In this document: in pieces, positions 12,471 to 33,627 of the stretch
Numbering within the stretch: position 1 is the stretch's first letter
Layout: every line of letters starts with the position of its first letter
Source of the DNA: a virus
DNA length: 62,327 nucleotides
Virus record (IMG/VR): IMGVR_UViG_3300042542_002992
Coordinates: 1-62,327 of that record
Strand: one strand, 5' to 3'
The notes under the pieces: model-generated
The model's database searches: none
The model's input: only the letters and a program-made list of their open reading frames with translations
What the model was told of the DNA's origin: nothing
Position numbers and translations under genes: made by a program

Positions 12471-12683
12471 ATGAAAAAATTTAGAATAATGTTAAGAGGA
12501 GAATCACACCCAGCCCATAAACTTACGGAAGACCAAGTGAAGGCTATCCGTAAACTTTGGGCTATTGGCCATAGAAACATTAGAGTTCTTGCCCGTAATA
12601 ACGGAGTTTCTCCTGCTAACATCAGAAAGATTGTTAAGGGGGAAACTTGGACTCATATTCTAAATTGGCCGTATGAAAATTGA
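12471..12683 (+). CDS. Small helix-turn-helix protein
   Basis: A 70-residue basic protein. Residues about 18-60 read as a helix-turn-helix (TEDQVKAIRKLWAIGHR, then VLARNNGVSPANIRKIVKG, ending in a Trp). This is the form seen in phage HTH domains attached to HNH endonucleases and resolvases, but no catalytic domain follows. It may be a transcription factor for the block it precedes. It overlaps the first Mom-like gene by 11 nt. Confidence 0.65.
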   Translation: MKKFRIMLRGESHPAHKLTEDQVKAIRKLWAIGHRNIRVLARNNGVSPANIRKIVKGETWTHILNWPYEN

Positions 12684-13434
12684 AGGTAAAACCTATTCTG
12701 ATATAAGTAAATTTTCGGTTAGACCGATTTCAAAATCCATTGCAAAGGATATTATTGTTAACAACCACTATAGTGGTATTTGGACAAAGGTATCATATGC
12801 TCTTGGATTGTTTTACAAATCAGAAAGTGACCATCAATTTTTTAGTGGTGTAAATGAAGAGTTGGTCGGAGTTGCTACTTATGGAGACCCCATTGGTAGA
12901 CATTCCGGCCAATCCATTTCGCCAATTCTTGATAGAACTGAAGTTTTAGAACTAACACGTTTATTTGTATTTGATGGTTATGGTTGTAACATTGAAAGTT
13001 GGTTTGTAAGTCAAACTTTCAAATGGTTACGAAATAACGCTCCCCACATAAGAGCCCTTGTATCATATTCAGACCCGAAGGTGGGTCATTTGGGGACTGT
13101 ATACCAATCTACAAATTGGATATATCAAGGTAATAGAATTCGACCAAATGATTCGTGGTCATTCAAGTGGAATGAGGACGAGGAGTGGCATCATAGTAGA
13201 ACCTCATTTGTCAGATACGGAACTAACAATCCAAAAAAAATTCAAGAAATGGTGGACAAACCATTTTGGATTAAGAAAGAACCGAGAAAACATAGATATG
13301 TTTATGTTTTGGATAAGTCACAAAAAAGTCGTATATTGAAGACTCTAAAATACCCATCCTTACCATATCCAAAAGTAAGTGAGGTATTCGAAGAAGAGAT
13401 ACATAAATTAGAACCAATTGAAAGAGGAAAATAA
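12673..13434 (+). CDS. Mom-like DNA-modification protein (GNAT fold), copy 1
   Basis: A 253-residue protein matching the Mom adenine-modification family layout. It has HYSG at 32-35, a GVATYGDPIGRH strand, VLELTRLFVFDGYGCN, a helix ending WLR, then VSYSDPKVGHLGTVYQ and a following tryptophan. In phage Mu, Mom modifies adenine to N6-(carbamoylmethyl)adenine and protects DNA from restriction. The family assignment is from recognised motifs; activity here is inference. It overlaps the next paralogue by 17 nt, and a third copy lies after the polymerase gene. Confidence 0.72.
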   Translation: MKIEGKTYSDISKFSVRPISKSIAKDIIVNNHYSGIWTKVSYALGLFYKSESDHQFFSGVNEELVGVATYGDPIGRHSGQSISPILDRTEVLELTRLFVFDGYGCNIESWFVSQTFKWLRNNAPHIRALVSYSDPKVGHLGTVYQSTNWIYQGNRIRPNDSWSFKWNEDEEWHHSRTSFVRYGTNNPKKIQEMVDKPFWIKKEPRKHRYVYVLDKSQKSRILKTLKYPSLPYPKVSEVFEEEIHKLEPIERGK

Positions 13435-14212
13435 ACATTATGTAGACACGTCACGAGTTTTTATTCGTGAGATTAACAAAGCAATTGCAAAAGATATGAT
13501 TGTTACATATCACTATTCGCACGCTTGGACTATGTGTAGATACGCATTGGGGGTGTTCTATAAAACTGATGAGAAAGATATTCTTGGGAATGATGAAAAA
13601 CTGATTGGTGTTGCTGTTTATGGATTTCCAGTTGGAAGGTCTGCTGTAACTTCTATTATTGATGGGTTGGGTAATGACCAATGTTTGGAATTAACACGAT
13701 TGTTTATTCACGATGGGTATGGTTCAAATATTGAGTCATACGCATTAGGACAAACATTCAAGTGGTTAAGAGAGAATGCTCCAAACATAAAAATGCTACT
13801 ATCATATTCAGACCCATTCCAAGGTCATTTAGGGGGTATCTATCGTGCTACGAATTGGTTATTTCAAGATACCAACAAAATACAGCTAATGCCGAATTAT
13901 GGAATTTGTTTGGAAAGTGAAGATGGTCAATATATCCATTCACGGACTGTATTCTCAAGATGGGGTAGTCACAACTTGGAACACCTCAAAACTGAAATTG
14001 GCAAGGATGGATACAAAGAGTTCTGGCGTAGAAAGGAGATGTCTAAACTACGATACATTCAGATTCTACCAACCAATAAGTCGGAGAAGAAGCGTTTGCT
14101 TAAAGCTCTGAAACATCCATGTGAAACACCACCATCTGATATCAAAGACATTTTACCGGCAGCCGAAAGGTATGAAACTTACGAGCCCGAAAATAAAGTG
14201 AATTTTTGGTAA
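13418..14212 (+). CDS. Mom-like DNA-modification protein (GNAT fold), copy 2
   Basis: A 264-residue paralogue of the preceding gene, colinear across its length: HYSH at 32-35, GVAVYGFPVGRS, CLELTRLFIHDGYGSN, WLRENAP, LSYSDPFQGHLGGIYR. Copies 1 and 2 are clearly closer to one another than to copy 3. The start is a TTG at 13418 overlapping copy 1 by 17 nt; the ATG at 13440 is out of frame and stops at once, and no other in-frame start precedes the conserved region. The tandem arrangement points to local duplication with divergence, perhaps giving different sequence or acyl-donor specificity. Confidence 0.7.
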   Translation: MKEENKHYVDTSRVFIREINKAIAKDMIVTYHYSHAWTMCRYALGVFYKTDEKDILGNDEKLIGVAVYGFPVGRSAVTSIIDGLGNDQCLELTRLFIHDGYGSNIESYALGQTFKWLRENAPNIKMLLSYSDPFQGHLGGIYRATNWLFQDTNKIQLMPNYGICLESEDGQYIHSRTVFSRWGSHNLEHLKTEIGKDGYKEFWRRKEMSKLRYIQILPTNKSEKKRLLKALKHPCETPPSDIKDILPAAERYETYEPENKVNFW

Positions 14213-14217
14213 AAGTG

Positions 14218-14249
14218 TTTGTATATATCAAATTAATTTTGTATCTTTG
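14218..14249 (+). promoter_or_regulatory. Bacteroidota-type promoter, near-leaderless, ahead of GT and DNA polymerase
   Basis: TTTG at 14218-14221, 20 nt spacer, TATCTTTG at 14242-14249, a full consensus match. ATG 14256 begins 6 nt past the box, so the leader is absent or a few bases long. It would drive the glycosyltransferase, DNA polymerase and third Mom-like gene. Confidence 0.75.
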
Positions 14250-14255
14250 TAAAAT

Positions 14256-15383
14256 ATGTTTTGGGATAGTATAGATTATAATAACGCACGTAAAGTGTTG
14301 GTGATACCAAATATTACCAACTCTTCTAATATTGATAAGGACTCGTTTGTAGATGTGATTCATAATCATATTAAAGCACTCGAATCACATGGAGAATACT
14401 TTTGGAATATATTGATGCCGGTTGGTAAGGTCAGTAAAAAGCTTAATTTACCAAATGTAAAACAACATCAAGTTGAGATTCCTGGTGATATGATGAATCA
14501 GAGGTCATTCCCATCACCAAAACTTATAAACCTACTCAAAGACATTGACTATGATGTAATCTACTCACACTTACCAGATTGGCCGCAAGTGGGTAGGTAC
14601 AAGAAATCAATGGACACTAAAATTGTTGGGTATTGTCATTGGTGGGAAATGAAATCTTGTAATGGGCCGGACAATAGAGCTGGAAAGGCAAAGTGGCTGT
14701 GGTTACCCATGGAGATTCTTGGAGTATCACAAATGGATGTGTGTTACCTTAACACCCAAGACCAAAAGAATAGGGTATTGGATGAAGCATTAGAAATATT
14801 TAATGAAGAATTTGTTCAGAAGTTAGATAGTATTTTAAAAGTTTGGAACTTGGGCGTACCTAAAGATAAGGTGGTAACTGACTTGAAGGATACAAAAGAT
14901 AATGTTATTGTATTCAACCACCGAGCAGCAGCATATAAGGGATATCCAAAGTTTATTGAGTTGATGGAAGAATATCGTACACAACGACAAGATTTTACGG
15001 TATGGATTCCACAATTAACAGGTGATTCGCCACATCCTTGGATTGATAATACAAAAGTACCAAAACACGACTACTATAAACGACTTCAGAATTGTAAGGT
15101 GGGTGTTCAGATGCGTCAAACCAACTATGGATGGTCAGTAAGTGGTACTGATTGTATGATGAACGGAACTCCAATGATTTGGCAAGAATCTGATTGTTAT
15201 CGCGAGATTGACCCTAAAGGAATGTTCTTCAAATATAAGAAGGAATTCTTTGAGTATTTGGATAAAATGTTGGATGATGATACTTTCAGAAAAGAACAAG
15301 ACACATTGTCAGTACAACGAGCTATGGAACTATCTTTGAACGAAGATAAAATGATTAAAGAACTACATAAACAATTAAATTAA
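14256..15383 (+). CDS. GT-B glycosyltransferase-like protein upstream of DNA polymerase
   Basis: A 375-residue protein with two Rossmann-like halves. The first reads KVLVIPNITN at the N-terminus and continues through DYDVIYSHLPDWP. The second begins near residue 215 (NVIVFNHRAAAYKGYPKFIELME) and ends with the GT-B donor-site pattern GWSVSGTDCMMNGTPMIW. It overlaps the polymerase start by one base (taATG) and follows two Mom-like genes. Its position inside the replisome block rather than the sugar cluster makes a DNA- or base-glycosylating role conceivable, as with T4 glucosyltransferases, but no sequence evidence fixes the acceptor. Confidence 0.65.
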   Translation: MFWDSIDYNNARKVLVIPNITNSSNIDKDSFVDVIHNHIKALESHGEYFWNILMPVGKVSKKLNLPNVKQHQVEIPGDMMNQRSFPSPKLINLLKDIDYDVIYSHLPDWPQVGRYKKSMDTKIVGYCHWWEMKSCNGPDNRAGKAKWLWLPMEILGVSQMDVCYLNTQDQKNRVLDEALEIFNEEFVQKLDSILKVWNLGVPKDKVVTDLKDTKDNVIVFNHRAAAYKGYPKFIELMEEYRTQRQDFTVWIPQLTGDSPHPWIDNTKVPKHDYYKRLQNCKVGVQMRQTNYGWSVSGTDCMMNGTPMIWQESDCYREIDPKGMFFKYKKEFFEYLDKMLDDDTFRKEQDTLSVQRAMELSLNEDKMIKELHKQLN

Positions 15384-17905
15384 TGTATCAAAATGTTTAC
15401 TACGATAAAGAACAAGGTATCATCCATTGTTGGGATGACCAAAAGGGTTATTTTACAAGCAAGTACCGTAGATATGCTTATGTTAGAGATGGTAATGGTA
15501 CTTTTACTTCTATTCACGGAGAGCGTCTTAAAAAGATAAACTTTTGGAAAAAAGAGGATAATCTCAAACTATACGAATCTGATGTAAACGAGGTAACTCG
15601 GTTTCTGATTGATGAATATGGTGATTCGGATGAGGTATCAAAAGGACATACTATTTTAACTTTCGATATTGAGGTCGAAATGAATAGTGGGTTGCCGGAT
15701 GTTAATAAAGCTGAAAACGAAATCACGTCAATAGCCGGACACGACTCCGTGACCAATGATTACTTTGTGTATGTAGTCAGTAAGGGTGGTAATATCAATA
15801 AAAGAATCAAAGGTGCTGAAGTTCGTTCGTTTGATACTGAAGCAGACCTTTTGGTTGCTTTCTTAAATAAATGGCAAGAAATCAATCCTACAATTGTTAC
15901 AGGTTGGAACATTGACTATTTTGATATTACATACTTGTATAATCGATTGAAAAATGTTGTCGGTGAACGTATGGCTAACAAACTTTCTCCGATTGGTAAG
16001 ATTGGGTATAACAAATATCGTAATCGTTACATTATCGCAGGTGTATCTTGTTTGGACTATCTTGCTCTTTACAAAAACTTTACCTACCAAGAATTTCCAA
16101 ACTATCGATTAGACACCATTGCTAATTTGGTATTGGGTCGTGGTAAGATTGAATACAAAGGTAACCTTGACCAATTATTCAGAGATGATATTGAAAAGTT
16201 TATTGAGTATAACTTGGTCGATGTTGAGTTGGTTGTTGAGATGGATAGAAAACTTCAGTTCATCGAACTTGCTCAAGCGATTTGTCATGCCGGTCACGTT
16301 TTCTATGAGGACTTTTTATTCTCATCAAAATGGTTGGAAGGTGCTATCTTGACGTTCTTGCGTAGAAGTGGTCGTGTTGCTCCTGATAAACCAGATAGGG
16401 CTGATAAAAACGAGGATGGAACTGATGGTGAAGAGAAATTTACCGGTGCTTATGTTAAAGAACCCAAACCGGGTCTTTATAAATGGGTTTATGACTTGGA
16501 TTTAACTTCTCTGTACCCATCAATCATTATGACACTCAATGTTAGTCCTGAAACCAAGATTGGTAAGTTGAAGTCATTTTCGTCAGAGGACTACATGAAA
16601 GATACTATTGATTCTTATGTGATAGTCGAAGAGAATGGTACTGAATATCCACCATTAAACAAGGCTCAGTTCCAAAAATTGATTGAAGATTCAAATTATT
16701 CAATTTCATCAAATGGTGTATTGTACACTCAAGATAAAGTTGGTGTTATTCCTGAAATCTTAAATGTGTGGTTTGACAAACGAGTTGAGTACAAAGACTT
16801 GATGAAGAAATATGGTAAAGAAGGTAACAACGAACTTTACAAATTCTATTCACAACGTCAGTTAGTACAAAAGATTATGTTGAACTCGTTGTATGGTGTA
16901 TTGGGATTACCCTCATTCAGATTCTATGATGTGGATAATGCTGAAGCAACTACAATCACGGGTCAGACTGTTATTAAAACTACCGAGAAGATAGCTAACC
17001 AATATTACACCAAAATTATTGGTAGAGATGGTGACTATAATGTGTACACCGATACGGACTCGGTATTCTATCAGGCGCTTCCTTTGGTTCAAGCCAGAAA
17101 CCCAAACATTGACCCCACGTCAGATGAACAAATGGTTCCCGCTATTTTGTCAGTAGCTAAAGAGGTTCAAGAACACATTAATAAGGTTTACGACACTATG
17201 TCGAAAAAACTATTCAATGTTAATTCTCACCGATTTGATATCAAACAAGAAACTATCGCAAAGGGTGGATTTTGGGTATCAAAGAAACGATACGCTCAAT
17301 GGATTATCAATGATAATACCGTACCATGTGATAAGATGGATGTAAAGGGGCTTGATGTTCGTAGGTCTTCTTTTCCAACTTACTTTAAGAAAGTCATGGA
17401 GACTGTACTTTTGGATATTCTAAAGGGTGTTGACAAATCTGAAATCGACACTAAACTGATTGACTTCAAAGACAAAATGTCAGACCAAAACTTCGTTGAT
17501 ATTGCAAAGAATTCCGCTGTAAAGGATATGTCAAAATACATCAAGAAACGTACTGTATATTCTTTGAACGAGTTTGAAAAGGGAACTCCAGCCCACGTTA
17601 AGGCAGCCATAACTTACAATCGATTGTTGAAGTTTTATGATGCACCTTACAAGTATGAACCAATGAAGGATGGTGACAAGATTAAGTGGGTATATCTAAA
17701 ACGAAATCCCATGGGGATTGAAGCCACAGCGTTCACCGGTCACAATGACCCATCTCAAATTGAAGATTTGATTAGACAACACATCGATGTTGACTTGATT
17801 TGGGAAAAGGAGTTAGAAAATAAGATTACCGACTTCTACAACGCAATGGGGTGGGATAAACCAAATCCGAATCTTGCGAAGGCATCACAATTCTTTGGAT
17901 TCTAA
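15383..17905 (+). CDS. 43: Family B DNA polymerase (gp43-like)
   Basis: The replicative polymerase, 840 residues. The 3'-5' exonuclease motif ILTFDIEVEM is near residue 92, with further exonuclease motifs at GWNIDYFD and the YNLVDVELV region. Polymerase motif A is DLTSLYPSI (near 374), motif B the KIMLNSLYGVLG region (near 497), and motif C YTDTDSVF (near 555). It ends in a typical C-terminal clamp-binding-type segment (ASQFFGF). Start and stop each overlap neighbours by one base, so it is translationally coupled to a GT-like gene before and a Mom-like gene after. The order polymerase, clamp, loader is the reverse of T4. Confidence 0.95.
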   Translation: MYQNVYYDKEQGIIHCWDDQKGYFTSKYRRYAYVRDGNGTFTSIHGERLKKINFWKKEDNLKLYESDVNEVTRFLIDEYGDSDEVSKGHTILTFDIEVEMNSGLPDVNKAENEITSIAGHDSVTNDYFVYVVSKGGNINKRIKGAEVRSFDTEADLLVAFLNKWQEINPTIVTGWNIDYFDITYLYNRLKNVVGERMANKLSPIGKIGYNKYRNRYIIAGVSCLDYLALYKNFTYQEFPNYRLDTIANLVLGRGKIEYKGNLDQLFRDDIEKFIEYNLVDVELVVEMDRKLQFIELAQAICHAGHVFYEDFLFSSKWLEGAILTFLRRSGRVAPDKPDRADKNEDGTDGEEKFTGAYVKEPKPGLYKWVYDLDLTSLYPSIIMTLNVSPETKIGKLKSFSSEDYMKDTIDSYVIVEENGTEYPPLNKAQFQKLIEDSNYSISSNGVLYTQDKVGVIPEILNVWFDKRVEYKDLMKKYGKEGNNELYKFYSQRQLVQKIMLNSLYGVLGLPSFRFYDVDNAEATTITGQTVIKTTEKIANQYYTKIIGRDGDYNVYTDTDSVFYQALPLVQARNPNIDPTSDEQMVPAILSVAKEVQEHINKVYDTMSKKLFNVNSHRFDIKQETIAKGGFWVSKKRYAQWIINDNTVPCDKMDVKGLDVRRSSFPTYFKKVMETVLLDILKGVDKSEIDTKLIDFKDKMSDQNFVDIAKNSAVKDMSKYIKKRTVYSLNEFEKGTPAHVKAAITYNRLLKFYDAPYKYEPMKDGDKIKWVYLKRNPMGIEATAFTGHNDPSQIEDLIRQHIDVDLIWEKELENKITDFYNAMGWDKPNPNLAKASQFFGF

Positions 17906-18516
17906 TGAGTGTTACCAATTACATAGTAGAACCATGTCCACGAAGTGAAATTGCTAATTTTGTGGAAACACATCACTATTCAAAAAATATGAATGGATTA
18001 CACATTTCATATTGTTTTAAGTTGATGGATGGTAATACTATGATTGGTGCTATGGTGTATGGTTCTTTGGGGATGGTTGGTGTTGCTGAAAAATATACAA
18101 CCAACCCATCAAAACTTTTAGAGTTGAAACGGCTCGTTTGTATTGATGAAACCCCAAAGAATACCGAATCGTATTTTATAGGTTGGACTCTTCGCTGGTT
18201 ACAACGAAATACCGATTTGGAAATGATAATCTCATATGCTGATAAAACATTTGGACACGAAGGTGTTGTGTATAAGGCAACAAACTTCGAGTACAAAGGA
18301 GAGACTTCAGCTGGAAGAGTAATAATGTGGAATGGTCGTAGGTATCATGACAAAACATTGAGAAACAAACACAATGGGAAATTAAAACCCATTGCTATTG
18401 AATTGAAAAACGCATTGGAGAGTGGAGAAGCGACATACGTTGATACCTTGACGAAAAACATCTACGTCTATCGTTTCAAAAAAAGAAAACAAAAAATTCA
18501 CCAATGGTTTGGATAA
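17905..18516 (+). CDS. Mom-like DNA-modification protein (GNAT fold), copy 3
   Basis: A 203-residue, more diverged Mom-family member: HHYS at 23-26, MIGAMVYGSLGM, LLELKRLVCIDETPKN with a following ESYFIG helix, and ISYADKTFGHEGVVYK. It is shorter than copies 1 and 2, lacking their C-terminal extension, and keeps the canonical YAD form of the motif. It starts on the last base of the polymerase stop codon (taATG), so it is tightly coupled to replication. The DNA-modification role is inferred from the family. Confidence 0.72.
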   Translation: MSVTNYIVEPCPRSEIANFVETHHYSKNMNGLHISYCFKLMDGNTMIGAMVYGSLGMVGVAEKYTTNPSKLLELKRLVCIDETPKNTESYFIGWTLRWLQRNTDLEMIISYADKTFGHEGVVYKATNFEYKGETSAGRVIMWNGRRYHDKTLRNKHNGKLKPIAIELKNALESGEATYVDTLTKNIYVYRFKKRKQKIHQWFG

Positions 18517-18539
18517 TTCAGGATTATTTCGTATATTCG
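18508..18539 (+). promoter_or_regulatory. Bacteroidota-type promoter for the sliding clamp
   Basis: TTTG at 18508-18511, 20 nt spacer, TATATTCG at 18532-18539 (one mismatch). The spacer shares GGATAATTCA with the groES promoter at 57997. The leader to ATG 18561 is about 16 nt and A-rich with no clear Shine-Dalgarno site. Confidence 0.7.
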
Positions 18540-18560
18540 TAACAAATAAAAAATAAAAAC

Positions 18561-19256
18561 ATGAAAAAAAGTTCATTTGAAGGGTTTGTAGCCCGTTACA
18601 ACTTGGGTGGTGAGGTTGAATCCGTAAAAATCAACTCAACCGATGAAGGAATGTCTGTTCGATTCATCTCCGATGACAAAACCCTATTGGGTAGTGTTGA
18701 GACTGAAGAAAAAGAGTTCCCAAATGGTGAGTTTGGTGTTTACACGACATCACAACTAAAAGGTCTGCTTGGCGTTTTGGATTCTAACGTTAAAGTAGAA
18801 CAAGGTGAGGCATCCTTGGTTTTTTCAGACAATGGTACGTCTGTAAACTATATGTTGGCTGACCTTTCGGTTATTCCTGTAGTTCCCGAATTAAAACAAC
18901 TTCCCGATTTTGGTTCATCAGTAACACTTGATGACGAGTTCGTGGCTAAGTTTATTAAATCTAAAGGTGCTTTGAGTGATTCAGACACATTTACATTTAA
19001 GTGTAAAGGAAACAAAGGTGAGGTGATTTTGGGTTACTCTAAAATTAACTCAAACCGAATCTCTATCAATGTCGAGTGCACGTGTGCTTCTGACGTTGAA
19101 CCAATTTCATTCTCCGCCAAATATCTTAAAGAAATCCTCAATGCTAACCGAGGTGCTAAAGCTTCTTCGTTGAAGATTTCGTCTCAAGGTCTGGCTCATG
19201 TTGCTTTTGAACATGATGGGTTTAAGTCAAACTATTATTTGGTAGAGATTAAGTAA
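18561..19256 (+). CDS. 45: Sliding clamp (gp45-like)
   Basis: A 231-residue DNA polymerase processivity factor that forms a ring around DNA. Its length matches T4 gp45 (228), and it shows the expected alternating beta-strand pattern in two halves separated near residue 110 (VIPVVPELKQLPDF). The C-terminus ends in beta strands HVAFEHDGFKSNYYLVEIK. The stop overlaps the next gene by one base. Assignment is supported by position between the polymerase and gp44 as well as by sequence pattern. Confidence 0.87.
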   Translation: MKKSSFEGFVARYNLGGEVESVKINSTDEGMSVRFISDDKTLLGSVETEEKEFPNGEFGVYTTSQLKGLLGVLDSNVKVEQGEASLVFSDNGTSVNYMLADLSVIPVVPELKQLPDFGSSVTLDDEFVAKFIKSKGALSDSDTFTFKCKGNKGEVILGYSKINSNRISINVECTCASDVEPISFSAKYLKEILNANRGAKASSLKISSQGLAHVAFEHDGFKSNYYLVEIK

Positions 19257-20443
19257 TGTTTTGGGATACTGAACCGGCGAAACCGGAATTCAACTACATG
19301 GATGAAAAGAAAAAGTTCATAGATAATATGGACTATCTTTCATCTATGTCAGTAGAAGAACAAACTCTTTACAAAAAATGGGAAGAGTGGAATTCCGACC
19401 TACCATCCTCTATGAAGAGGAAGGCTGCTATGGCTACTTATATTGATTCTTTGTGGATGCCAACTGACATCTACAATAAAGAACAAACCATAAAAGAAGT
19501 CATGGCACTCGAACCCTATGTAGAGATTGTTGATGATTCAAAAGAATCTACTCGTTGGACTGAAATCCGTAAACTCATTCACACCATGGCTTTTTCAGCC
19601 AATCCAGGTCGTAACGTTAAGATTTACGTTAAAGATAGGGTAAGTGGTAAAGTGTTGGGTATGATTTCGCTCGGTTCAGATGTCACCTCTTTGGGTGTTA
19701 GGGATTCCTATATTGGTTGGACTCAAGATAACAAGTATAAAGATGGAAAGTTAAACCACACTACGATTGCAACTACAATCGTATGTACACAACCATTGGG
19801 TTATAACTTTTTGGGTGGTAAACTTATTGCTTGTATGGCCACGTCTCCTATTGTACGACAATATTGGAAAGACAAATATGGTCAGACGTTGATTGCAGTT
19901 GGAACTACATCTTTATATGGAATCCATTCACAATATAATGGAATCCCTCACTTCAAAACACTTGGTGAATCCGCAGGTAAAGTTGCTATTAAACCAGATG
20001 ATTCTGTATATGAAGTATGGCATCATTGGTTAAAGGATAACAAGTCTGAAGAGTACATGAGACAAACTGCCGAAAAGGAGAATGTTGATGGACCTGCTAC
20101 CGGAGTAAAACAAAAAATTATCAATATGATATTCAAAGAACTTGGTATCAAGGCTTCTAAATATCAACATGGATTTAAGAGGGGTGTATACTTTGCTCAA
20201 ATGTATGAAAATGGTAATGAGTTTCTCCGAAACGAAATCACCGAGGACCAGTTGGTATTGAAAGATAAGTTCGCAAAAGGTGACCAATACACTATGGATT
20301 GGTGGAAGAAGAAGGCTGTTTCTCGTTATGAAAAACTACATGATGAGGGTCGTATTAAACCTGAACCATTGTTTTATCTTGATATTATTGGTATGTCTTG
20401 GGAGGCTGCAAAAGAAAAGTATTTAAACGAAGTAGGAAGATGA
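19256..20443 (+). CDS. DUF4338/DruA-like protein between clamp and clamp loader
   Basis: A 395-residue protein. Residues about 130-245 follow the DUF4338/DruA layout: LGMISLGSDV, then VRDSYIGWT, GYNFLGGKLIACMATSP, WKDKYGQTLIAVGTTS and a closing LGESAGK. DUF4338 occurs in the Druantia defence protein DruA and in phages; its fold is believed related to GNAT-type transferases, and its chemistry is not known to me. The N-terminal 120 and C-terminal 120 residues are additional. It overlaps both neighbours (taATG before, ATGA after), so it is co-translated with the clamp genes. T4 has no gene in this place. Confidence 0.55.
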   Translation: MFWDTEPAKPEFNYMDEKKKFIDNMDYLSSMSVEEQTLYKKWEEWNSDLPSSMKRKAAMATYIDSLWMPTDIYNKEQTIKEVMALEPYVEIVDDSKESTRWTEIRKLIHTMAFSANPGRNVKIYVKDRVSGKVLGMISLGSDVTSLGVRDSYIGWTQDNKYKDGKLNHTTIATTIVCTQPLGYNFLGGKLIACMATSPIVRQYWKDKYGQTLIAVGTTSLYGIHSQYNGIPHFKTLGESAGKVAIKPDDSVYEVWHHWLKDNKSEEYMRQTAEKENVDGPATGVKQKIINMIFKELGIKASKYQHGFKRGVYFAQMYENGNEFLRNEITEDQLVLKDKFAKGDQYTMDWWKKKAVSRYEKLHDEGRIKPEPLFYLDIIGMSWEAAKEKYLNEVGR

Positions 20444-21354
20444 GTAATACACTATGGGTTGAAAAATATAGACCCGATACGTTAGAAGGTTATGTTGGTA
20501 ACGAACATATCCTTGAAAAAGTAAAGATTTACATCCAAAATGAGGATGTACCACACTTGTTATTGTATGGTCAAGCCGGTACGGGTAAAACCACATTGGC
20601 TAAAATCATAACAAATCAGATTGATTGTGATGTTATGTACATCAATGCTTCTGATGAAAACAACGTTGACACTGTTCGTGATAAGATTCGAGGTTTCGCA
20701 TCATCCATGGGATTCCGTAAATGGAAAATCATCATCTTGGATGAGTCTGATTACTTGACACCAAACGCACAAGCAGCTCTTCGAAATCTGATGGAAACTT
20801 TTAGTAAGTCGACTCGATTTATTTTGACGTGTAATTATGTTGAAAAAATCATCGACCCAATCCAATCAAGATGTCAGACATTCGCTATCACCCCACCATC
20901 AAAGAAGGATGTTGCAAAACGACTCAATGAAATTCTAAATCAAGAAGGTGTTGAGTTTGAAATGTCAGATTTGGCTGTGATTGTTAATAGTGGATATCCC
21001 GACATTCGTAGGGTATTGAACGCTGCTCAACGACAAGTCATTAATGGTAAGTTGGTAATAGACAAACAATCTACGATTCAAGCAAACTACGCAGAAGAAG
21101 TTGTTAAGGTTCTTCAGAGTAGTAGTGATGCTAAATCTAAATTTGTGAGTATCCGACAAATTATCGCTGATTCCGGCGTCAAGGATTTCACTCCGTTGTA
21201 TCGTTTGTTGTACGACCGAGTTGATGATTATGCTAACAACAAAGTGGGTCAGACTATCTTAAACATCGCAGATGGTCAATACAAAGACACCATGGTAGTG
21301 GACAAAGAAATAAATGTAATGGCGATGATGTTGAATATTATAACAAGTATCTAA
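20440..21354 (+). CDS. 44: Clamp loader large subunit (gp44-like AAA+ ATPase)
   Basis: A 304-residue AAA+ protein that opens and loads the sliding clamp. It begins with the diagnostic LWVEKYRPDTLEGYVG. Walker A GQAGTGKTT is near residue 43, Walker B IIILDESD near 103, sensor 1 ILTCNY near 138, and the arginine-finger motif QSRCQTF near 150. ATG 20440 overlaps the preceding stop (ATGA) and follows AGGAAG; upstream in-frame codons belong to the previous gene. The gene is followed by a zinc-ribbon gene and gp62. Confidence 0.93.
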   Translation: MSNTLWVEKYRPDTLEGYVGNEHILEKVKIYIQNEDVPHLLLYGQAGTGKTTLAKIITNQIDCDVMYINASDENNVDTVRDKIRGFASSMGFRKWKIIILDESDYLTPNAQAALRNLMETFSKSTRFILTCNYVEKIIDPIQSRCQTFAITPPSKKDVAKRLNEILNQEGVEFEMSDLAVIVNSGYPDIRRVLNAAQRQVINGKLVIDKQSTIQANYAEEVVKVLQSSSDAKSKFVSIRQIIADSGVKDFTPLYRLLYDRVDDYANNKVGQTILNIADGQYKDTMVVDKEINVMAMMLNIITSI

Positions 21355-24534: not shown

Positions 24535-25953
24535 ATGCAAGAATTAAAATTACCTAAACTTAAAAAGGTAGACCCAAATCGTCCAAAAAAGAAGAAGATT
24601 CTTTTATTGTCAGATGACTTGAGACTACATAGCGGAATCGCTACACAATCCAAAGAGATTGTTATTTCAACATTACATAAATACGATTGGGTACAATTAG
24701 GCGCTGCCTTAAAACATCCTGACCATGGTAAAGTTTTTGATGTATCTGAAGATGCTTCAAAAGAAGCTGGTATTGAAGATGGTAGTGTTAAGATTTATGC
24801 ACATACGGGATATGGTAATCCCGAAGTTTTACGAGAATTGATAAACGTTGAAAAGCCAGATGCTATCATGCACTTCACCGACCCTCGTTTTTGGGGATGG
24901 TTATATGACATGGAGCTTGAGGTTCGTCAATTCTTACCTATTATTTACTACAATATTTGGGACGATTTACCAGACCCAATGTGGAATGCTCCGTTCTATG
25001 CAAGTTGTGACCAATTGATTTCGATTTCAAAACAAACATATGGTATCAACAAAAGAGTTTTGGAAAAGTATGGTATGCCAAAAGAAGATTGGTGTTACAA
25101 GTATATTCCACATGGTGTATCAAAGATGTTCTATCCATTACCATCAGATGATTCAAATCTTGTTAACTTTAAGAAACAATATGGTCTTGACAAGTATGAC
25201 TTTGTAGTTTTATGGAATAATAGAAACATTCGTAGAAAATCTCCAGGTGACGTAGTTCTTGCATTCAATGAGTTTGCCAAACGTAACCAAGATAAGAAAG
25301 TTTGTTTATTCATGCACACCGAACGTGTTTCAGAACATGGTACTGATATACCTGAAGTAATCAAAATGAATGGTGAGTTTGGTGATTACAAGTTTACAAA
25401 CGGCCCCATGTCAACTCAAGACCTAAATCTATATTATAATTCGGGTGACATCATTCTAAATGTTGGTTCTAACGAGGGATTTGGTTTGGCTTCGTGTGAA
25501 GCTCTACGAGCCGGAACTCCTATTATCGTTAACATTACTGGTGGATTACAAGACCAGTGTGGTTTCGAATTATTTGGATTACCATTGGGTGCCGAAAATT
25601 ATGTAGAGATTGGGTCATTACACAATGATAGAGAATGGAAGGGTTCAAGTGACTTATCTTCAGGTGTATGGTCGTTTCCAGTATGGCCGAGTAATAGGTC
25701 ATTACAAGGGTCTCCGATGACTCCTTATATTTTTGATGACCGATGTGATTATTACGATGTTGCTCTTGAACTTCAAAATGCATTTGAGATGGGTAGAGAG
25801 AAATTAGAAATCTATGGCCAAAAAGGACATGAGTGGGTTATTGGTGATGGTGATATGGCATCTGAAACCATGGGTCTGAAGTTTATTGACGCATTTGAGG
25901 ATTGTTTTAAAAATTGGACACCTCGTAAACGATTTGATATTTATAAAGCATGA
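24535..25953 (+). CDS. GT4-like glycosyltransferase opening the glycan cluster
   Basis: A 472-residue GT-B enzyme. The N-terminal fold begins KILLLSDDLRLHSGIATQS near residue 22, typical of GT4 transferases that take sugar from a nucleotide donor. The donor-site signature NVGSNEGFGLASCEALRAGTPIIV is near residue 310 (EGFGL with the second Glu). The extreme N-terminus carries LKLPKLKK, repeated at the C-terminus of the next gene product. It starts behind a TATTTATTA element and a GAGTTACGAT ribosome site and overlaps the next gene by 4 nt. Confidence 0.85.
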   Translation: MQELKLPKLKKVDPNRPKKKKILLLSDDLRLHSGIATQSKEIVISTLHKYDWVQLGAALKHPDHGKVFDVSEDASKEAGIEDGSVKIYAHTGYGNPEVLRELINVEKPDAIMHFTDPRFWGWLYDMELEVRQFLPIIYYNIWDDLPDPMWNAPFYASCDQLISISKQTYGINKRVLEKYGMPKEDWCYKYIPHGVSKMFYPLPSDDSNLVNFKKQYGLDKYDFVVLWNNRNIRRKSPGDVVLAFNEFAKRNQDKKVCLFMHTERVSEHGTDIPEVIKMNGEFGDYKFTNGPMSTQDLNLYYNSGDIILNVGSNEGFGLASCEALRAGTPIIVNITGGLQDQCGFELFGLPLGAENYVEIGSLHNDREWKGSSDLSSGVWSFPVWPSNRSLQGSPMTPYIFDDRCDYYDVALELQNAFEMGREKLEIYGQKGHEWVIGDGDMASETMGLKFIDAFEDCFKNWTPRKRFDIYKA

Positions 25954-27227
25954 AAAAGTTATGTATAGTTAGTTGCCCGATTGCAACTCGAAGTGGTTAT
26001 GGTTCTCGAGCGCGAGATTTTGTACGTTCACTAATCCAAGTAAAGGGAGAGGAGTGGGACATCAAAATCCTACCTCAACGATGGGGTAATACACCACAAA
26101 CTGCGTTGACTGATGGTATTGATAATGACTTGATTTCACGATTGACAACATCGGTTACACAAAAGCCGGATGTTTGGATTCAGATTACAATCCCCAATGA
26201 GTTTCAACCGGTTGGTAATTTTAATATTGGAATTAGTGCGGTAATCGAAACTGATGCGGCAAGTCCTGCGTTCATCGAAGGTTGTAATAGAATGGACTTA
26301 ACAATTGTATCATCAAATCACTCCAAGAAAACTCTCGAAGTAAGTTATGATAAGTTGGATGAAAATACAAAACAAAAAATTGGTGAGTTAAAATTACAAA
26401 AGCCGGTCGAAGTTTTATTTGAGGGATTTGATGAGAATGTATATGATAATACCAAACCAATTCACAAGTCGGTTAATGATACACTGTCTTCAGTAAAAGA
26501 AGATTTTGCATTCTTATTTGTAGGTCATTGGTTACCAGGTGAGTTGATGCAAGATAGAAAGAACGTGAGTGGTTTGATTAAAACATTCCTTGAAAGTTTC
26601 AAGAATAAAACTAAAAAGCCCGCTCTGATTCTAAAGACATCAATTGTATCACCATCAATCACAAATGTACATGAAATCAAAAAACGTATAGATTTGATTA
26701 AATCTACGGTTGATTCAAAAAATCTACCTAACATTTATATTTTGGATGGTGACCTTTCAGATGATGAAATGAATTCACTATATAACCATTCGAAGGTTAA
26801 GGCTCATGTTTCATTGACGAGAGGTGAGGGTTTTGGTAGACCTCTATTAGAAGCTTGTATTAGTGGTAAACCCATTTTGGCATCAAATTGGAGTGGTCAT
26901 TTAGATTTCCTACATAAAGACTATAATTTCCTTGTTGGTGGTAATCTTGAACAAGTACACCCATCTGCTGCAAATGATTGGATTTTGAAAGAATCTAATT
27001 GGTTTACAATCAATTATAATGAGGTTTCGAACACAATGAAATATATTTATGAAAATCATAACAAGTGTTTGGAAATGTCAAGAAAAAATCGTAAATTTGT
27101 TAAAGACAATTTTACATTTAATAAGATGACCGAACGGCTTGGTGAGATATTAAATAATACAAATGCAGGTAAGGGGCCTCAACAAATGACCCTACAATTG
27201 CCTAAATTAAAGAAAATGAATGGCTGA
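25950..27227 (+). CDS. GT4-like glycosyltransferase
   Basis: A 425-residue GT-B enzyme. It opens with KKLCIVSCPIATRSGYGSRARDF and has the donor-site motif RGEGFGRPLLEACISGKPIL near residue 290, then the NWSGHLDFL loop. The C-terminus ends in LQLPKLKKMNG, echoing the N-terminus of the preceding enzyme but with different codons. The pair is translationally coupled and probably acts in sequence on one glycan. Sugar and acceptor are unknown. Confidence 0.85.
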   Translation: MKKLCIVSCPIATRSGYGSRARDFVRSLIQVKGEEWDIKILPQRWGNTPQTALTDGIDNDLISRLTTSVTQKPDVWIQITIPNEFQPVGNFNIGISAVIETDAASPAFIEGCNRMDLTIVSSNHSKKTLEVSYDKLDENTKQKIGELKLQKPVEVLFEGFDENVYDNTKPIHKSVNDTLSSVKEDFAFLFVGHWLPGELMQDRKNVSGLIKTFLESFKNKTKKPALILKTSIVSPSITNVHEIKKRIDLIKSTVDSKNLPNIYILDGDLSDDEMNSLYNHSKVKAHVSLTRGEGFGRPLLEACISGKPILASNWSGHLDFLHKDYNFLVGGNLEQVHPSAANDWILKESNWFTINYNEVSNTMKYIYENHNKCLEMSRKNRKFVKDNFTFNKMTERLGEILNNTNAGKGPQQMTLQLPKLKKMNG

Positions 27228-27675
27228 TTTTAAAAGTCAACATAGGGTAAGAATGACCGACCCCACTCCGATTTCTAAAAGTAAATTGGAGAGGGGTATG
27301 GTTGCTAAAGTCAGATACAAAAAAGTATCAGGTGACATAGAAGAATATTTTGTATTTGTTCTACAACCAAAGTATATGGATTATTTCCATTGTATCGACT
27401 TGAAATACATCAAACCTAATGTATTTGAAAAGTTAGCGGAAGAATATCCCGAGATAAAAAGTACAAGTTCGAAGGTAAAGAAATTAGATTTAACAAAACT
27501 TCAGATAAACGAGAGTTCAAAACAATTCTACATGGCCGAAATCAAACGTAAAAAGTTGAGTGAAGGTTATAGAACTTTTGTAGAACGTAACATCACATCT
27601 ATAATTGTATTCAATTACAAATATGGTAAGTTTGATAGAATCGCACCCGAACAAGAACGAGAACAAATAGATTAA
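27220..27675 (+). CDS. Hypothetical protein, 151 aa
   Basis: A 151-residue basic protein with beta-rich N-terminal half (GMVAKVRYKK, EEYFVFVLQPKYMDYFHCIDL) and a C-terminal segment YRTFVERNITSIIVFNYKYGKFD. It looks like a conserved phage protein, perhaps virion-associated, rather than a sugar enzyme. It overlaps the preceding glycosyltransferase by 8 nt. No function is assigned. Confidence 0.6.
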   Translation: MADFKSQHRVRMTDPTPISKSKLERGMVAKVRYKKVSGDIEEYFVFVLQPKYMDYFHCIDLKYIKPNVFEKLAEEYPEIKSTSSKVKKLDLTKLQINESSKQFYMAEIKRKKLSEGYRTFVERNITSIIVFNYKYGKFDRIAPEQEREQID

Positions 27676-27679
27676 GATT

Positions 27680-28306
27680 ATGAAAATTAGTTACGCAGTT
27701 ACGGTTTGCAATGAATTGGTGGAGATTCAAACTTTACTACCATTTTTGATAGCATCTAAACAACAACAAGACGAGATTGTTGTATTATTTGATAGTAAGA
27801 ACGGAACTCAAGAAGTAAAAGAATATCTTGAGTCCATGTCGACTCCATCATCGAAATTAAAATGGTTTTCTTATGACTTCGATGGTCATTTTGCAAACAT
27901 GAAAAATCGATTGACACAAGAATGTAGTGGTGATTACATTTTTCAGATTGACGCAGATGAAATCCCACAAGTAGATTTGATGGACAATCTTCATGAAATC
28001 CTAAACATAAATGATATTGATGTAATTCTTGTACCAAGGGTGAACACGGTAGAAGGGTTGACTCAAGAACATATTCAGAAATGGAGATGGAACGTCAATG
28101 AACAAGGGTGGGTCAATTGGCCGGATTACCAATGGAGAATCTATAAGAATTCAGATTCCATTCGTTGGGAAAACAAGGTACACGAAAAACTCGTTGGATT
28201 CGATACAATTTCAAATTTACCAATGGTAGAACAATTATCACTACAACACTCAAAAACTATTGATAGACAAGAACGACAAAATTCGTATTACGAAACCCTA
28301 TCGTGA
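27680..28306 (+). CDS. Family 2 glycosyltransferase, short
   Basis: A 208-residue GT-A domain protein: ISYAVTVCNELVEIQTLL at the start, IVVLFDSKNGT near residue 35, and the metal-binding motif IFQIDADEIPQ near 93. A WPDYQWRIYKN segment, typical of GT2 enzymes with acceptor loop HEKL, follows. It is short for the family but appears complete. A 52-nt gap to the next gene holds only a weak inverted repeat. Confidence 0.82.
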   Translation: MKISYAVTVCNELVEIQTLLPFLIASKQQQDEIVVLFDSKNGTQEVKEYLESMSTPSSKLKWFSYDFDGHFANMKNRLTQECSGDYIFQIDADEIPQVDLMDNLHEILNINDIDVILVPRVNTVEGLTQEHIQKWRWNVNEQGWVNWPDYQWRIYKNSDSIRWENKVHEKLVGFDTISNLPMVEQLSLQHSKTIDRQERQNSYYETLS

Positions 28307-28358
28307 ACGAACGTTTTGGAGACGAAACGTGTGTCATAAAGAAAATTTTTAATTTCCT

Positions 28359-30050
28359 ATGTTATTAGATTGTACATTAAGAGATGGTGGTTACTACACC
28401 AATTGGAACTTTGACATTCAAATGGTCAAAGACATGATTCAAGCCCTTGACGCTGCTAGCGTTGATGTGATTGAATTGGGATACAAATCACCCGTAAAAG
28501 GTGGTAAGTTCCGAAAGTGTAACGATAGGTTTATTTGGGAACTCTTGGAATATAGAAAGCCCACAACTTCTCAATTGGCGTTCATGATTGATGCCAAAGA
28601 TTTTATCAAAGGTGGTGATGTTGATTATTCTCTTATTGATGATGTGATTCACCCAAAACGTGAATCTCCATTTTCAATTTGTAGATTGGCTATCAAACAT
28701 TCCGAAATTGACTTATCTTTAAAAATTGGAGAATACGTCAAATCAAAAGGATATGACCTTGCGGTAAACCTAATGGGTATTTCACTTTTAAGTGATGAAC
28801 AAATTAACGAGTTTGGGGTGTTCTCAAAATTAAACCCTATCGCACTTTACTTTGCGGATTCTTATGGAAATCTTGAACCAACACGAACCTGTGAGTTGGT
28901 ATCTTTATTTAAAACTTTTGGGTGTTCGGTTGGGGTTCATACACACGACAACCTTGGACTTGCGTTTGCGAATTGTTTGTCTGCTATGGAAGAAGGAGCC
29001 GAGTGGATTGATGGAACTCTTCTTGGTATGGGTCGTGGTGTTGGTAATGTAAAAACCGAACAATTGATTACCTACCTATATTGGAGACGTGGGTTGTACC
29101 CAAACTCAAAACAAGTTCAGAGAATCGTAACACATTGGATGGCTCCTCTTCAACAAATTCACCAATGGGGATTCACACACAACTACATGGTGAGTGGTTT
29201 AAATCACATTCACCCACTTTATCCACAAGAATTACAATCTTCTATTATAAGTCCAAACCGAATCGAAGATATTCTTTGTTCTATTGAAGACTCGGTTTCG
29301 TATGATTTTTCAAAGATTGAATCACATCTGATTCCAAAGGTGGCTGTTGTGATTCCTGCACGATACAAATCATCAAGATTTCCTGGTAAACCACTTGCCA
29401 AAATCAAGGGTAAGGAAATGATTATTTGGGTTGCTGAAATTGCTGAAAAAGCGGTTGGTCGTGACAATGTTTATATTGCTACTGAAAATGAAGAGATTGT
29501 TGATGTGGTTAAGGGGAACGGGTACAAGGTGGTACTGACTTCAGATTCATGTCCTACCGGAACTGACCGAGTGGCTGAAGCGGCTTTGGAAATTGATGCT
29601 GATATTATTATTAACATTCAAGGTGATGAACCTATGTTGAATCCAAGTGATATCACAAAAGTTATTCAAGAAAAAATTAAACACCCAAATCACGTTATAA
29701 ATTGTATGGCTTATTTGAGTGCCGGTGAAAACGTTGAAGATAAAAAGATTCCAAAAGTTATCACTTCGTTGACCGATGAGTTGATTTATATATCACGAAA
29801 TCCAATTCCTGGAACAAAAACTGGAAATGGAGCAGCTCCTAAAAAGCAAGTTTGTATTTACGGGTTTAATAGAAACGAATTAAAAAAGTTTTCTGATATG
29901 GGTGAAAAAACACCACTCGAATTCGAAGAGGATATTGAAATTATCAGATTTATAGAAATGGGTGTAAAAGTAAAAATGGTTATGTTGAATAGTCAGTCAT
30001 ATGCTGTAGATTACCCAGAGGATATTAATATAGTAGAACGAAATTTATGA
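28359..30050 (+). CDS. Fusion: HMGL-like aldolase domain plus CMP-KDO synthetase (KdsB-like)
   Basis: A single 563-residue frame with two enzymes. Residues 1-320 are a DRE-TIM/HMGL-like aldolase: LLDCTLRDGGYYTNW at the start, then VIELGYKSP, GVHTHDNLGLAFAN and GTLLGMGRGVGN. Residues 327-563 are a KdsB-like cytidylyltransferase: VVIPARYKSSRFPGKPLAKI, TENEEIVD, CPTGTDRVAEA and NIQGDEPML. KdsB makes CMP-KDO from CTP and KDO. The pairing suggests synthesis and CMP activation of an ulosonic-acid-type sugar. Separate genes of these kinds occur together in bacterial polysaccharide loci; fusion is unusual. No stop or frame change interrupts the junction. Confidence 0.85.
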   Translation: MLLDCTLRDGGYYTNWNFDIQMVKDMIQALDAASVDVIELGYKSPVKGGKFRKCNDRFIWELLEYRKPTTSQLAFMIDAKDFIKGGDVDYSLIDDVIHPKRESPFSICRLAIKHSEIDLSLKIGEYVKSKGYDLAVNLMGISLLSDEQINEFGVFSKLNPIALYFADSYGNLEPTRTCELVSLFKTFGCSVGVHTHDNLGLAFANCLSAMEEGAEWIDGTLLGMGRGVGNVKTEQLITYLYWRRGLYPNSKQVQRIVTHWMAPLQQIHQWGFTHNYMVSGLNHIHPLYPQELQSSIISPNRIEDILCSIEDSVSYDFSKIESHLIPKVAVVIPARYKSSRFPGKPLAKIKGKEMIIWVAEIAEKAVGRDNVYIATENEEIVDVVKGNGYKVVLTSDSCPTGTDRVAEAALEIDADIIINIQGDEPMLNPSDITKVIQEKIKHPNHVINCMAYLSAGENVEDKKIPKVITSLTDELIYISRNPIPGTKTGNGAAPKKQVCIYGFNRNELKKFSDMGEKTPLEFEEDIEIIRFIEMGVKVKMVMLNSQSYAVDYPEDINIVERNL

Positions 30051-30643
30051 AGGTTTATTTTGACGTAGGAGCTCATGATGGTAGAGATGGGTTCGGTTCT
30101 TTAATTGGTGCTAAATATCAAAAGTGTTATGCTTTTGAAATTGATAAAAGAATGATTGATAAAATCAAAGGTAGTTCAAAAGTATGGGGGGGCCAATATG
30201 TACTTATTGAAAAAGCGGTTGGTTCTAAAAACGAAACCATGCGTTATACGTCATTCAAAAAATCAAATGTTGGTTCACTTTATGATGTGAATTCCGAATC
30301 TATAAAAGGTAGAGACCCACGGGATTTTGAAATAGTAGATGAATATGATGTTGAAGTTATAACTTTAGCTGATTTCTGTAAAGAAAATAATATAGAGTGT
30401 ATTGACCATTTACACATAGATACCCAAGGAAATGATTATGAGGTAATACTTGGACTTGGGGATTATATTAATATTGTACAATCGGGTGAACTTGAGTGTT
30501 ATGATACTACACAAAACAATTTGTATAGAAACACAACAAACACATTAGAAAATTGTAAAACATATTTAGAAGCTGCTGGATTTGAATGTAGTTTTGAAAG
30601 ACAATCGAACCATGATGGTAATTTAAAATTTAAAAGATTATGA
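30047..30643 (+). CDS. FkbM-family methyltransferase
   Basis: A 198-residue SAM-dependent methyltransferase. The SAM loop is YFDVGAHDGRDG at the very N-terminus, and the acidic strand end is YAFEID near residue 29. FkbM features follow: VGSKNETMRY, the LADFCKEN segment, and the HIDTQGNDYEVI motif near 120. It probably O-methylates a sugar of the glycan made by its neighbours, with which it overlaps by 4 nt on both sides. Confidence 0.85.
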   Translation: MKVYFDVGAHDGRDGFGSLIGAKYQKCYAFEIDKRMIDKIKGSSKVWGGQYVLIEKAVGSKNETMRYTSFKKSNVGSLYDVNSESIKGRDPRDFEIVDEYDVEVITLADFCKENNIECIDHLHIDTQGNDYEVILGLGDYINIVQSGELECYDTTQNNLYRNTTNTLENCKTYLEAAGFECSFERQSNHDGNLKFKRL

Positions 30644-31434
30644 AACAAAAAACAATAGAGTTACAAAACCAAATCCAACAATTTGAATATGTCCATGAGA
30701 GACTTGAATTGTTAAAAAATCAATATGAAGGTGAGACTGCTTATATCATTGCAGCTGGACCATCTTTAAACAATTATTCGATTAATCAATTGAAAAAAAC
30801 ATTGGGTGATAAGTTGGTGTTATGTATCAAACAACCCTACCACAATCTAAAAGATATCACCGACTTTTTGTTTTTGAATTTTACAAACCTATCACCATAT
30901 CAGTTTCAACAAGATACCATCGTATCGTGGGCCTTTTGGTTTAAAAATCATCCCGAAGCAATAGCTCAACAGGGGTGGAAAGCTGATTTGTTATTTCCTA
31001 TTTTTAGGAATGAAAACATTGATAATAAAATCTCACAATCAATAGCATATCAAGGTGATTTTGATAATATTACTTTTGAAAAAAGTTTACCGAGACCATG
31101 GGGACCTGGACTCATGTATGAACTTGCAATCCCAATGGCTTTACATTTGGGGTGTAAAGAAATTGTCACTATTGGTTGGGATATTGGTGATATAAATTTA
31201 TGGAAAAATCCAAATGATGAAGAAGAACGTCATTTTGTAGAACATTTCTATTCACCGGAAACTCCAATGTATGATAAGTTTAAAATGGATGCTGAAGAAG
31301 TAAAGTTGATTACAAAGTCAGTTTCAGACATGAACGCTTATTTAAATTCACAAGGAGTATCGTTCAAGATTGTATCGGATAGAAATCCAGCCGATTTGTC
31401 AGTCCCACGAATTAACTTGGAAGATATAAAATGA
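30640..31434 (+). CDS. DUF115/MptE-like glycan protein
   Basis: A 264-residue protein beginning with a coiled helix, then AYIIAAGPSLNNYSINQLKK near residue 32, the GxGPSL motif of the DUF115/MptE-like family. That family includes the Maf flagellin glycosyltransferases, which use CMP-activated nonulosonic acids. A later CKEIVTIGWDIGD segment completes the Rossmann sheet. In this operon it may be a transferase for the CMP-sugar made by the upstream fusion enzyme; this is inference. Confidence 0.7.
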   Translation: MKQKTIELQNQIQQFEYVHERLELLKNQYEGETAYIIAAGPSLNNYSINQLKKTLGDKLVLCIKQPYHNLKDITDFLFLNFTNLSPYQFQQDTIVSWAFWFKNHPEAIAQQGWKADLLFPIFRNENIDNKISQSIAYQGDFDNITFEKSLPRPWGPGLMYELAIPMALHLGCKEIVTIGWDIGDINLWKNPNDEEERHFVEHFYSPETPMYDKFKMDAEEVKLITKSVSDMNAYLNSQGVSFKIVSDRNPADLSVPRINLEDIK

Positions 31435-31823
31435 AAATAGAAGACTACAACAATCTACAAGGATTTGAAAATGAGACCCAAATTGCTGTAGACTTCGATG
31501 GTGTTATTCATAGAAATTCCAAAGGATTTCATGATGGCACAATATACGATACTCCAATTGATGGTTCTTTGGATGCTATAAAAGAATTACATGACATGGG
31601 TTATACTATCGTAATATTCACGGCAAAGGCAAAAAAAGACAGACCACTCGTAAATGGTAAGACTGGAGAAGAGTTGATTTGGGAGTGGTTGGTAAAACAT
31701 GGTATTTCACAATACGTTAAAGAAGTAACTTCAGAAAAACCAAGGGCAAAGTATTATATAGATGATAATGGTATCAGATTTACAAGTTGGACTGACACTT
31801 TAAATTTGGTTTTATCAAAATAA
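31431..31823 (+). CDS. Small HAD-family phosphatase-like protein
   Basis: A 130-residue HAD protein. Motif I is AVDFDGVIHR near residue 21, motif II VIFTAK near 60, and motif IV YYIDDNG near 107 with a lysine upstream (EKPRAKYY). The first-Asp motif DFDG supports phosphatase activity. It may dephosphorylate a sugar phosphate in the pathway; it is smaller than KdsC. It overlaps the preceding gene by 4 nt. Confidence 0.75.
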   Translation: MKIEDYNNLQGFENETQIAVDFDGVIHRNSKGFHDGTIYDTPIDGSLDAIKELHDMGYTIVIFTAKAKKDRPLVNGKTGEELIWEWLVKHGISQYVKEVTSEKPRAKYYIDDNGIRFTSWTDTLNLVLSK

Positions 31824-31836
31824 TTTTGTATATTAG
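31805..31836 (+). promoter_or_regulatory. Bacteroidota-type promoter inside the glycan cluster
   Basis: TTTG at 31805-31808, within the end of the HAD gene, 20 nt spacer, TATATTAG at 31829-31836. ATG 31852 follows 15 nt later. It splits the glycan genes into two transcription units. Confidence 0.65.
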
Positions 31837-31851
31837 TAAAAATAAATCGTT

Positions 31852-33626: not shown

Positions 33627-33627
33627 T

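Follow-up and report, generated by a model that had tools for sequence, protein, structure and literature searches.

Several Mom-family genes and a DruA relative in the replication operon of an uncultured T4-like phage

Mom of phage Mu puts an N6-methylcarbamoyl group on adenine; it is the textbook example of how restriction can be overcome by an unusual modification of adenine, and has usually been studied as one gene in one phage. In the virus record IMGVR_UViG_3300042542_002992, whose 62,327 bases are the whole stretch of DNA analyzed here (the window), three Mom-family open reading frames (ORFs; Mom1, Mom2 and Mom3) and one DruA-family ORF are interspersed among the genes of a T4-like replisome operon (Table 1). 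We propose, with a probability of about 0.6, that these four GNAT-fold genes constitute a set of paralogs that is coupled to replication, modifies DNA in the manner of Mom and thereby protects the phage DNA. The original prediction had named the same three Mom-like proteins and a DUF4338-like protein inside the replisome operon. These assignments were confirmed, and the location was found to be conserved across clades of relatives.

All three Mom ORFs scored above the cutoff (27.1) of the Pfam Mom model PF25680, with 157 bits for Mom1 (E = 5.4e-46), 161 bits for Mom2 (E = 3.3e-47) and 123 bits for Mom3 (E = 1.7e-35). They also matched PHROG 1384, 'Mom-like DNA modification protein' (E = 4e-52, 1e-42 and 3e-54, respectively). 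The motifs quoted earlier for the three copies are present, and alignment with Mu Mom (our L159) revealed H-Y-S, EL-x-R, D..N-x-ES, S-x-x-D and G-x-x-Y-x-x-x-N in all four proteins. S124 of Mu Mom, whose essentiality rests on the title of the PDB entry 8bv8 ('inactive mutant S124A'), corresponds to S109 in Mom1, S107 in Mom2 and S89 in Mom3. A serine occupies this position in every distinct Mom1 (67), Mom2 (74), Mom3 (13) and other Mom-type (24 + 51) sequence. The signature residues H, R, Y and N are likewise invariant in the Mom1, Mom2 and Mom3 sets, D134 varies in only 3 of 74 Mom2 sequences, and R96, Y144 and N148 (Mom1 numbering) are invariant or nearly so across all groups. Comparison with Mom and GNAT structures, as suggested originally, gave a clear result for Mom1: its AlphaFold2 (AF2) model (predicted local distance difference test score, pLDDT, 88) matched Mu Mom in 8bv8 with E = 3.5e-14 and a template modeling (TM) score of 0.73 by target length, while generic GNATs (protein and polyamine acetyltransferases) followed about nine orders of magnitude behind in E-value. 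We conclude from sequence that the three ORFs are Mom-family proteins with intact predicted active-site residues.

Mom1 and Mom2 are 46% identical, and Mom3 shares about 27 to 36% identity with both over the aligned part. In the tree, Mom1 and Mom2 group with the Mom of Polaribacter phage P12002L, and Mom3 lies in a separate clade with the Moms of Darwin, phiSHEF2, RaK2 and S-SSM7. Judged by this tree, Mom1 and Mom2 are old tandem paralogs and Mom3 is a separate Mom lineage. Thirteen positions are fixed (≥90%) to differing residues in Mom1 versus Mom2, which points to a pair that diverged in a stable manner, as expected for paralogs with distinct jobs. The presence of Mom3 among relatives is patchy and thus fits horizontal gain. 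The several diverged copies noted originally are kept under purifying selection: the ratio of nonsynonymous to synonymous substitution rates (dN/dS) against relatives was 0.04 to 0.10 for Mom1 and Mom2, 0.06 to 0.08 for Mom3 and 0.04 to 0.12 for DruA. The values for the family B DNA polymerase (PolB), gp45 and gp44 were close to these (0.03 to 0.13), and those for the MazG and DUF1599 genes were mostly higher (0.09 to 0.17). Purifying selection on Mom1 and Mom2 is about as strong as that on the polymerase.

The fourth protein is a true member of the DruA family (formerly DUF4338), by Pfam (PF14236, 88.7 bits, E = 4.9e-25, cutoff 27) and by PADLOC (DruA, E = 1.5e-24). Foldseek matches of its AF2 model (pLDDT 81, predicted TM score 0.79) in the PDB were mostly GNAT acetyltransferases with a best E-value of 8e-3, which is only suggestive of a GNAT-like fold. 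DUF4338 has already been described as a GNAT domain (PMC10853773). In BFVD, giant-virus proteins of 469 to 1260 amino acids (aa) from Faunusvirus, Yasminevirus and Dasosvirus (A0A3G4ZXG3, A0A5K0UAJ3 and A0A3G4ZRA1) matched the DruA fold with E-values of 9e-18 to 6e-9. A scan of genome contigs for cellular DruA relatives gave a single match, which is 61% identical (L160; NHIV01000037.1, 2470-3636) and lies on a 7.5 kb contig of the metagenome-assembled genome of bacterium TMED198; this contig may be mis-binned phage.

Mom and DruA are connected by a short DruA form of about 200 to 245 aa (DruS), found in relatives L018, L064, L129, L131, L136, L138-L141, L153, L216 and L220. Its motifs HHSYV, RFCM..IKNAGT and GAVYKADNW..IGET parallel HHYS, RLVCI.ETPKNTES and GVVYKATNF.YKGET of Mom. 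In hhalign, the DruS profile matched Mom with a probability of 95.4% (E = 1.9e-8) and DruA with 97.4% (E = 1.4e-11), while the DruS, Mom and DruA profiles reached at most 8.1% against unrelated families from the same loci, which served as negative controls. Pfam searches of the same DruS proteins returned the DruA match together with sub-cutoff Mom matches (E = 0.0012 and 0.0045). Because the DruS profile is significant to both families and the controls are not, we conclude that Mom and DruA are, at the level of profile comparison, one GNAT superfamily linked through DruS. The window DruA would thereby be distantly homologous to Mom and not a mere look-alike. A statement of this link was not found in the literature searched, in which coverage of subscription papers was small. 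We consider the Mom-DruA bridge and the multi-copy replisome set to be new, while Mom itself is known and common.

Scans of viral contigs with DruA, Mom1 and Mom3 yielded 80 loci apiece; in the entry counts given in this text one contig can contribute several overlapping loci, so that they show the pattern, not independent events. The gene maps fall into at least three clades. In clade A, which contains the window (PolB roughly 70 to 95% identical to that of the window), the order is HTH-Mom1-Mom2-(GT)-PolB-(Mom3)-gp45-DruA-gp44, where HTH stands for a helix-turn-helix gene and GT for a glycosyltransferase gene. Clade B (PolB about 53%) mostly has HTH-Mom1-Mom2-DruA-(GT)-PolB-gp45-gp44, and clade C (for example L227) has PolB-gp45-Mom-gp44-Zn protein-gp62-Mom-DUF1599. 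Toward clade B, Mom1 (61 to 79%) and DruA (56 to 67%) are better conserved than PolB (about 53%) and gp45 (about 48%). Among 23 larger relatives selected by Mom1 or DruA, 22 carry Mom genes, usually as the tandem pair, and 22 carry DruA; one of the two exceptions is a 100-kb fragment, and the other has the Mom pair at the contig end.

The Mom and DruA genes exchange places within a few slots. The slot after gp45 holds DruA in 63 entries and a Mom-type gene in 19, with gp44 following directly in 13. After PolB stands Mom3 (19 entries) or short DruA (4), and after HTH stands Mom1 (105), short DruA (4), Mom2 (3) or DruA (1). Further Mom slots are gp62-Mom and RNaseH-Mom-gp41; the latter holds a short-type Mom, between RNaseH and the gp41 helicase, in L186, L195, L199-L202, L207, L212 and L213. 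Whole clades of large uncultured phages retain between two and four members of the Mom/DruA group in this operon. A set of this kind, with several copies that exchange slots among the replisome genes, appears to be characteristic of such uncultured clades. In cyanophages S-SSM7 and S-SCSM2R, a DruA gene separates gp44 from gp62 within the clamp-loader cluster; the depositors of S-SCSM2R labeled it 'methylcarbamoylase mom'.

The homology, active-site residues, fold, operon position, purifying selection, retention of paralogs and slot exchange described above are observed, and from them we infer how the set could work. The four genes would be co-translated with those for the polymerase, the clamp and the clamp loader. 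Most likely, each Mom is catalytically active on a DNA substrate, with a Mom-type chemistry in which the group is transferred to newly made phage DNA. A division of labor may exist in which the Mom paralogs are specialized for different sequence contexts, different states of the substrate or different products; the targets and the number of products could then differ between copies, and more host restriction enzymes would be blocked than by a single Mom. The position in the replisome operon may time the Moms to replication or tether them to it through a physical link, and the role of DruA would be to add a related mark. Replication-linked DNA hypermodification, as originally proposed, is therefore a reasonable reading of homology, active site, operon and selection; the helper genes proposed with it are unsupported (see below). 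The set suggests that uncultured phage clades mark new DNA chemically in several ways during copying, and raises the question of whether several Moms give several marks.

A broader reading takes Mom and DruA as two branches of nucleic-acid group transferases, of which T4-like phages keep one to four in fixed replisome slots; every member would contribute its own mark or context, and nascent DNA would be marked combinatorially at the fork. We regard this as doubtful. If true, DruA of Druantia would by homology be a DNA-modifying or modified-base-handling enzyme.

Several observations weigh against the proposed set. Full-length window DruA gave no PF25680 match and has NGIPHFKTLG in place of the Tyr/Asn motif GxVYxATN of Mom, and its direct hhalign comparison with Mom was not significant (probability 0.6 to 1.5%). 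Lacking the Tyr/Asn pair and a significant direct Mom match, DruA may do something other than Mom chemistry. Further, L050 has HTH-DruA-PolB in a record without Mom, and some relatives have Mom2 without adjacent Mom1, or DruA alone, so that the full Mom/DruA set is not obligatory. Microcystis phage Mel-JY01, the closest cultured polymerase relative (48.5% PolB identity), has neither Mom nor DruA. Finally, the linkage counts are inflated by the same-contig overlaps and by the choice of loci.

The strongest rival concerns DruA: instead of modifying DNA, it could be a replisome or defense factor that acts, for example, on the clamp or clamp loader or, as in Druantia, against superinfecting phages. 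We consider this possible, although we lean against it. DruA lies in the clamp-loader cluster even of cyanophages that have Mom elsewhere or none (S-SSM7, S-SCSM2R), and DUF4338 GNAT domains fused to DndF have been proposed as possible protein-directed effectors (PMC10853773). However, Mom genes occupy exactly its slot in the third clade (gp45-Mom-gp44), its short form is homologous to Mom, and the Druantia helicase PF09369 was found in 0 of 14 large relatives. For the Moms, all copies could make the same modification, the extra ones being dosage or drifting duplicates without any sharing of work. The identical active-site signature in all copies would agree with this, as would a copy number ranging from none to three or more and a Mom3 that is confined to some of the relatives and looks like a horizontal acquisition. 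We still find it unlikely, given that most loci retain both Mom1 and Mom2, which fall into separate old clades and differ at the 13 positions fixed within each subgroup, and that Mom3 comes from another Mom lineage and is not a duplicate of the pair.

It is less likely still that Mom1 and Mom2 are halves of one heterodimer that reads a non-palindromic site. The genes are overlapping and in tandem, Mom1 is followed by Mom2 or another long-type Mom in 105 of 105 usable locus entries, and two chains are present in the crystal entry of Mu Mom; but in some loci (L055, L064, L067, L076 and L168) Mom2 stands directly behind HTH, or follows short DruA or Mom3, and Mom1 is missing at that place, which contradicts an obligate heterodimer. 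Action of the Mom-like proteins on tRNA, a small molecule or protein instead of DNA is highly improbable: the GNAT fold serves many substrates, yet the match to Mu Mom is near whole-length, including the essential Ser and the family-invariant residues, and Mu Mom leads the structural matches by the E-value distance given above.

Table 1. Features of the window between the HTH gene and the clamp-loader gene (nt, nucleotides)
Feature	Coordinates	Strand	Support or remark
HTH protein, 70 aa	12471..12683	+	weak HTH matches in PHROGs/Pfam; overlaps Mom1 by 11 nt
Mom1, Mom-family GNAT transferase, 253 aa, 'long' type	12673..13434	+	PF25680; AF2 model vs 8bv8
Mom2, Mom-family GNAT transferase, 264 aa, TTG start	13418..14212	+	PF25680; phmmer to 8bv8 E = 3.4e-8
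Promoter-like site, Bacteroidota type, TTG-N20-TATCTTTG, immediately 5' of GT-B gene	14219..14248	+	pattern match
Family B DNA polymerase (gp43-like)	15383..17905	+	PF00136 E = 2.8e-40; PHROG 262 E = 3e-192
Mom3, Mom-family GNAT transferase, 203 aa, 'short' type	17905..18516	+	PF25680
Sliding clamp (gp45-like)	18561..19256	+	PHROG 223 E = 1.1e-11
DruA (ex-DUF4338) family protein, 395 aa, GNAT-like core	19256..20443	+	PF14236
Clamp-loader ATPase (gp44-like)	20440..21354	+	ORF list and gene maps; overlaps DruA stop

The T4-like core genes of the window comprise a gp32-like single-stranded DNA-binding protein, UvsX/RecA, RNaseH, the gp41 helicase, NrdA/B, the family B polymerase, the clamp and the clamp loader, in the order gp32, UvsX, RNaseH, gp41, NrdB/A, MazG, HTH, Mom1, Mom2, GT-B, PolB, Mom3, gp45, DruA, gp44, gp62. 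The Mom1 and Mom2 genes share 17 nt. The last base of the PolB stop is also the first base of Mom3, and the gp45 stop and DruA are joined in the same way (TAATG in both cases), while the stop of DruA overlaps the start codon of gp44 (ATGA). These overlapping starts and stops suggest translational coupling within one replication operon. In 105 locus entries, among which a contig may be represented more than once, the HTH gene lies no more than 400 nt ahead of Mom1, and it stays at its slot when DruS, Mom2 or DruA stands in for Mom1. Its product is 63 to 90% identical between clades, above the conservation of the polymerase, and is a possible regulator or DNA-recognition partner.

Three neighboring genes had been proposed to supply or extend the modification, and we rejected each of them as a partner. 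The GT-B gene (14256) is replaced by a 28 to 30% identical gene or absent in many relatives; since the window and its relatives carry many further glycosyltransferases downstream, a glycosyltransferase near Mom needs no functional link. The MazG-like gene (12060) is absent from clade B operons, and the DUF1599 gene (22056), whose Pfam match is below the cutoff, lies near gp32 in that clade; both evolve faster than the Mom/DruA genes. A Druantia system was also rejected, as the 14 large relatives lack the DruE-type helicase PF09369, which gave matches in 8 control genomes. With regard to a pyrimidine hypermodification pathway based on hmU or hmC, which would involve a dNMP hydroxymethylase, PF00303 was found in 8 of 14 relatives, and the only two read (L248, L249) show the ordinary thymidylate synthase motif GLPFNIASYG.

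The pattern TTG-N18-21-TAnnTTTG occurs at 12 coding-strand sites, versus 3.6 ± 2.0 in shuffles, and Shine-Dalgarno sequences are scarce (8 of 49 window genes). Because of this enrichment of promoter-like sites and the few Shine-Dalgarno sequences, the host is probably a member of the Bacteroidota, in agreement with a Polaribacter phage as the nearest cultured Mom1/Mom2 relative. Such sites lie near gene starts at 5180, 14219, 22477, 51013, 56496 and 57998. Outside the operon, a large glycan cluster (24535-38470) encodes many glycosyltransferases, a DegT aminotransferase, an FkbM-type methyltransferase, a GT29 sialyltransferase-like protein and a 563-aa protein (28359) in which an HMGL-like aldolase is fused to a cytidylyltransferase.

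In comparison with Mu Mom (8bv8), the window Moms share a whole-domain family match (PF25680), the invariant residues including S124 and the fold. Mu has one Mom among its late genes, whereas the window has three diverged copies in the replication operon. A small overlapping gene stands just 5' of Mom in both, Com in Mu and HTH in the window; Com is a zinc finger, whereas the HTH protein has no Cys and is hence not Com-type. The view that Mom is known from Mu as one late gene proved too narrow: tblastn searches of 50,697 phage records with the three Moms matched 297, 303 and 287 records, at one place per record (297/297, 303/303, 287/287), and some other phage Moms also adjoin replication genes, as in phiSHEF2, where Mom is next to the DNA polymerase. 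These Moms are normally single copy, in contrast to the multi-copy window set. PHROG 1384 includes Moms of Enterococcus phiSHEF2, Corynebacterium Darwin, Klebsiella RaK2, Synechococcus S-SSM7 and Polaribacter P12002L; Mom3 is about 50 to 55% identical to several of these, and the P12002L Mom is closest to Mom1 and Mom2 (44 to 48%). In 12 phage records searched with the Pfam Mom model, a second match was found only in RaK2; it was weak and within a 584-aa frame, which fits the GNAT Mom domains fused to restriction endonucleases in jumbo phages (PMC7824862). Unlike those, the window Moms are stand-alone and multiple, with no fused nuclease.

DruA-like folds have been reported in six Synechococcus phages (PMC12774648), and DruA of Druantia is listed as of unknown function (PMC7251935). 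The sequence bridge through short DruA offers a concrete biochemical hypothesis for this Druantia component. By Pfam and PADLOC, DruA of Druantia type I belongs to the same family as the window protein. Druantia has DruE, whereas DruA of the window type lies in the replisome operon, with no DruE in relatives and with a short form that joins it to Mom.

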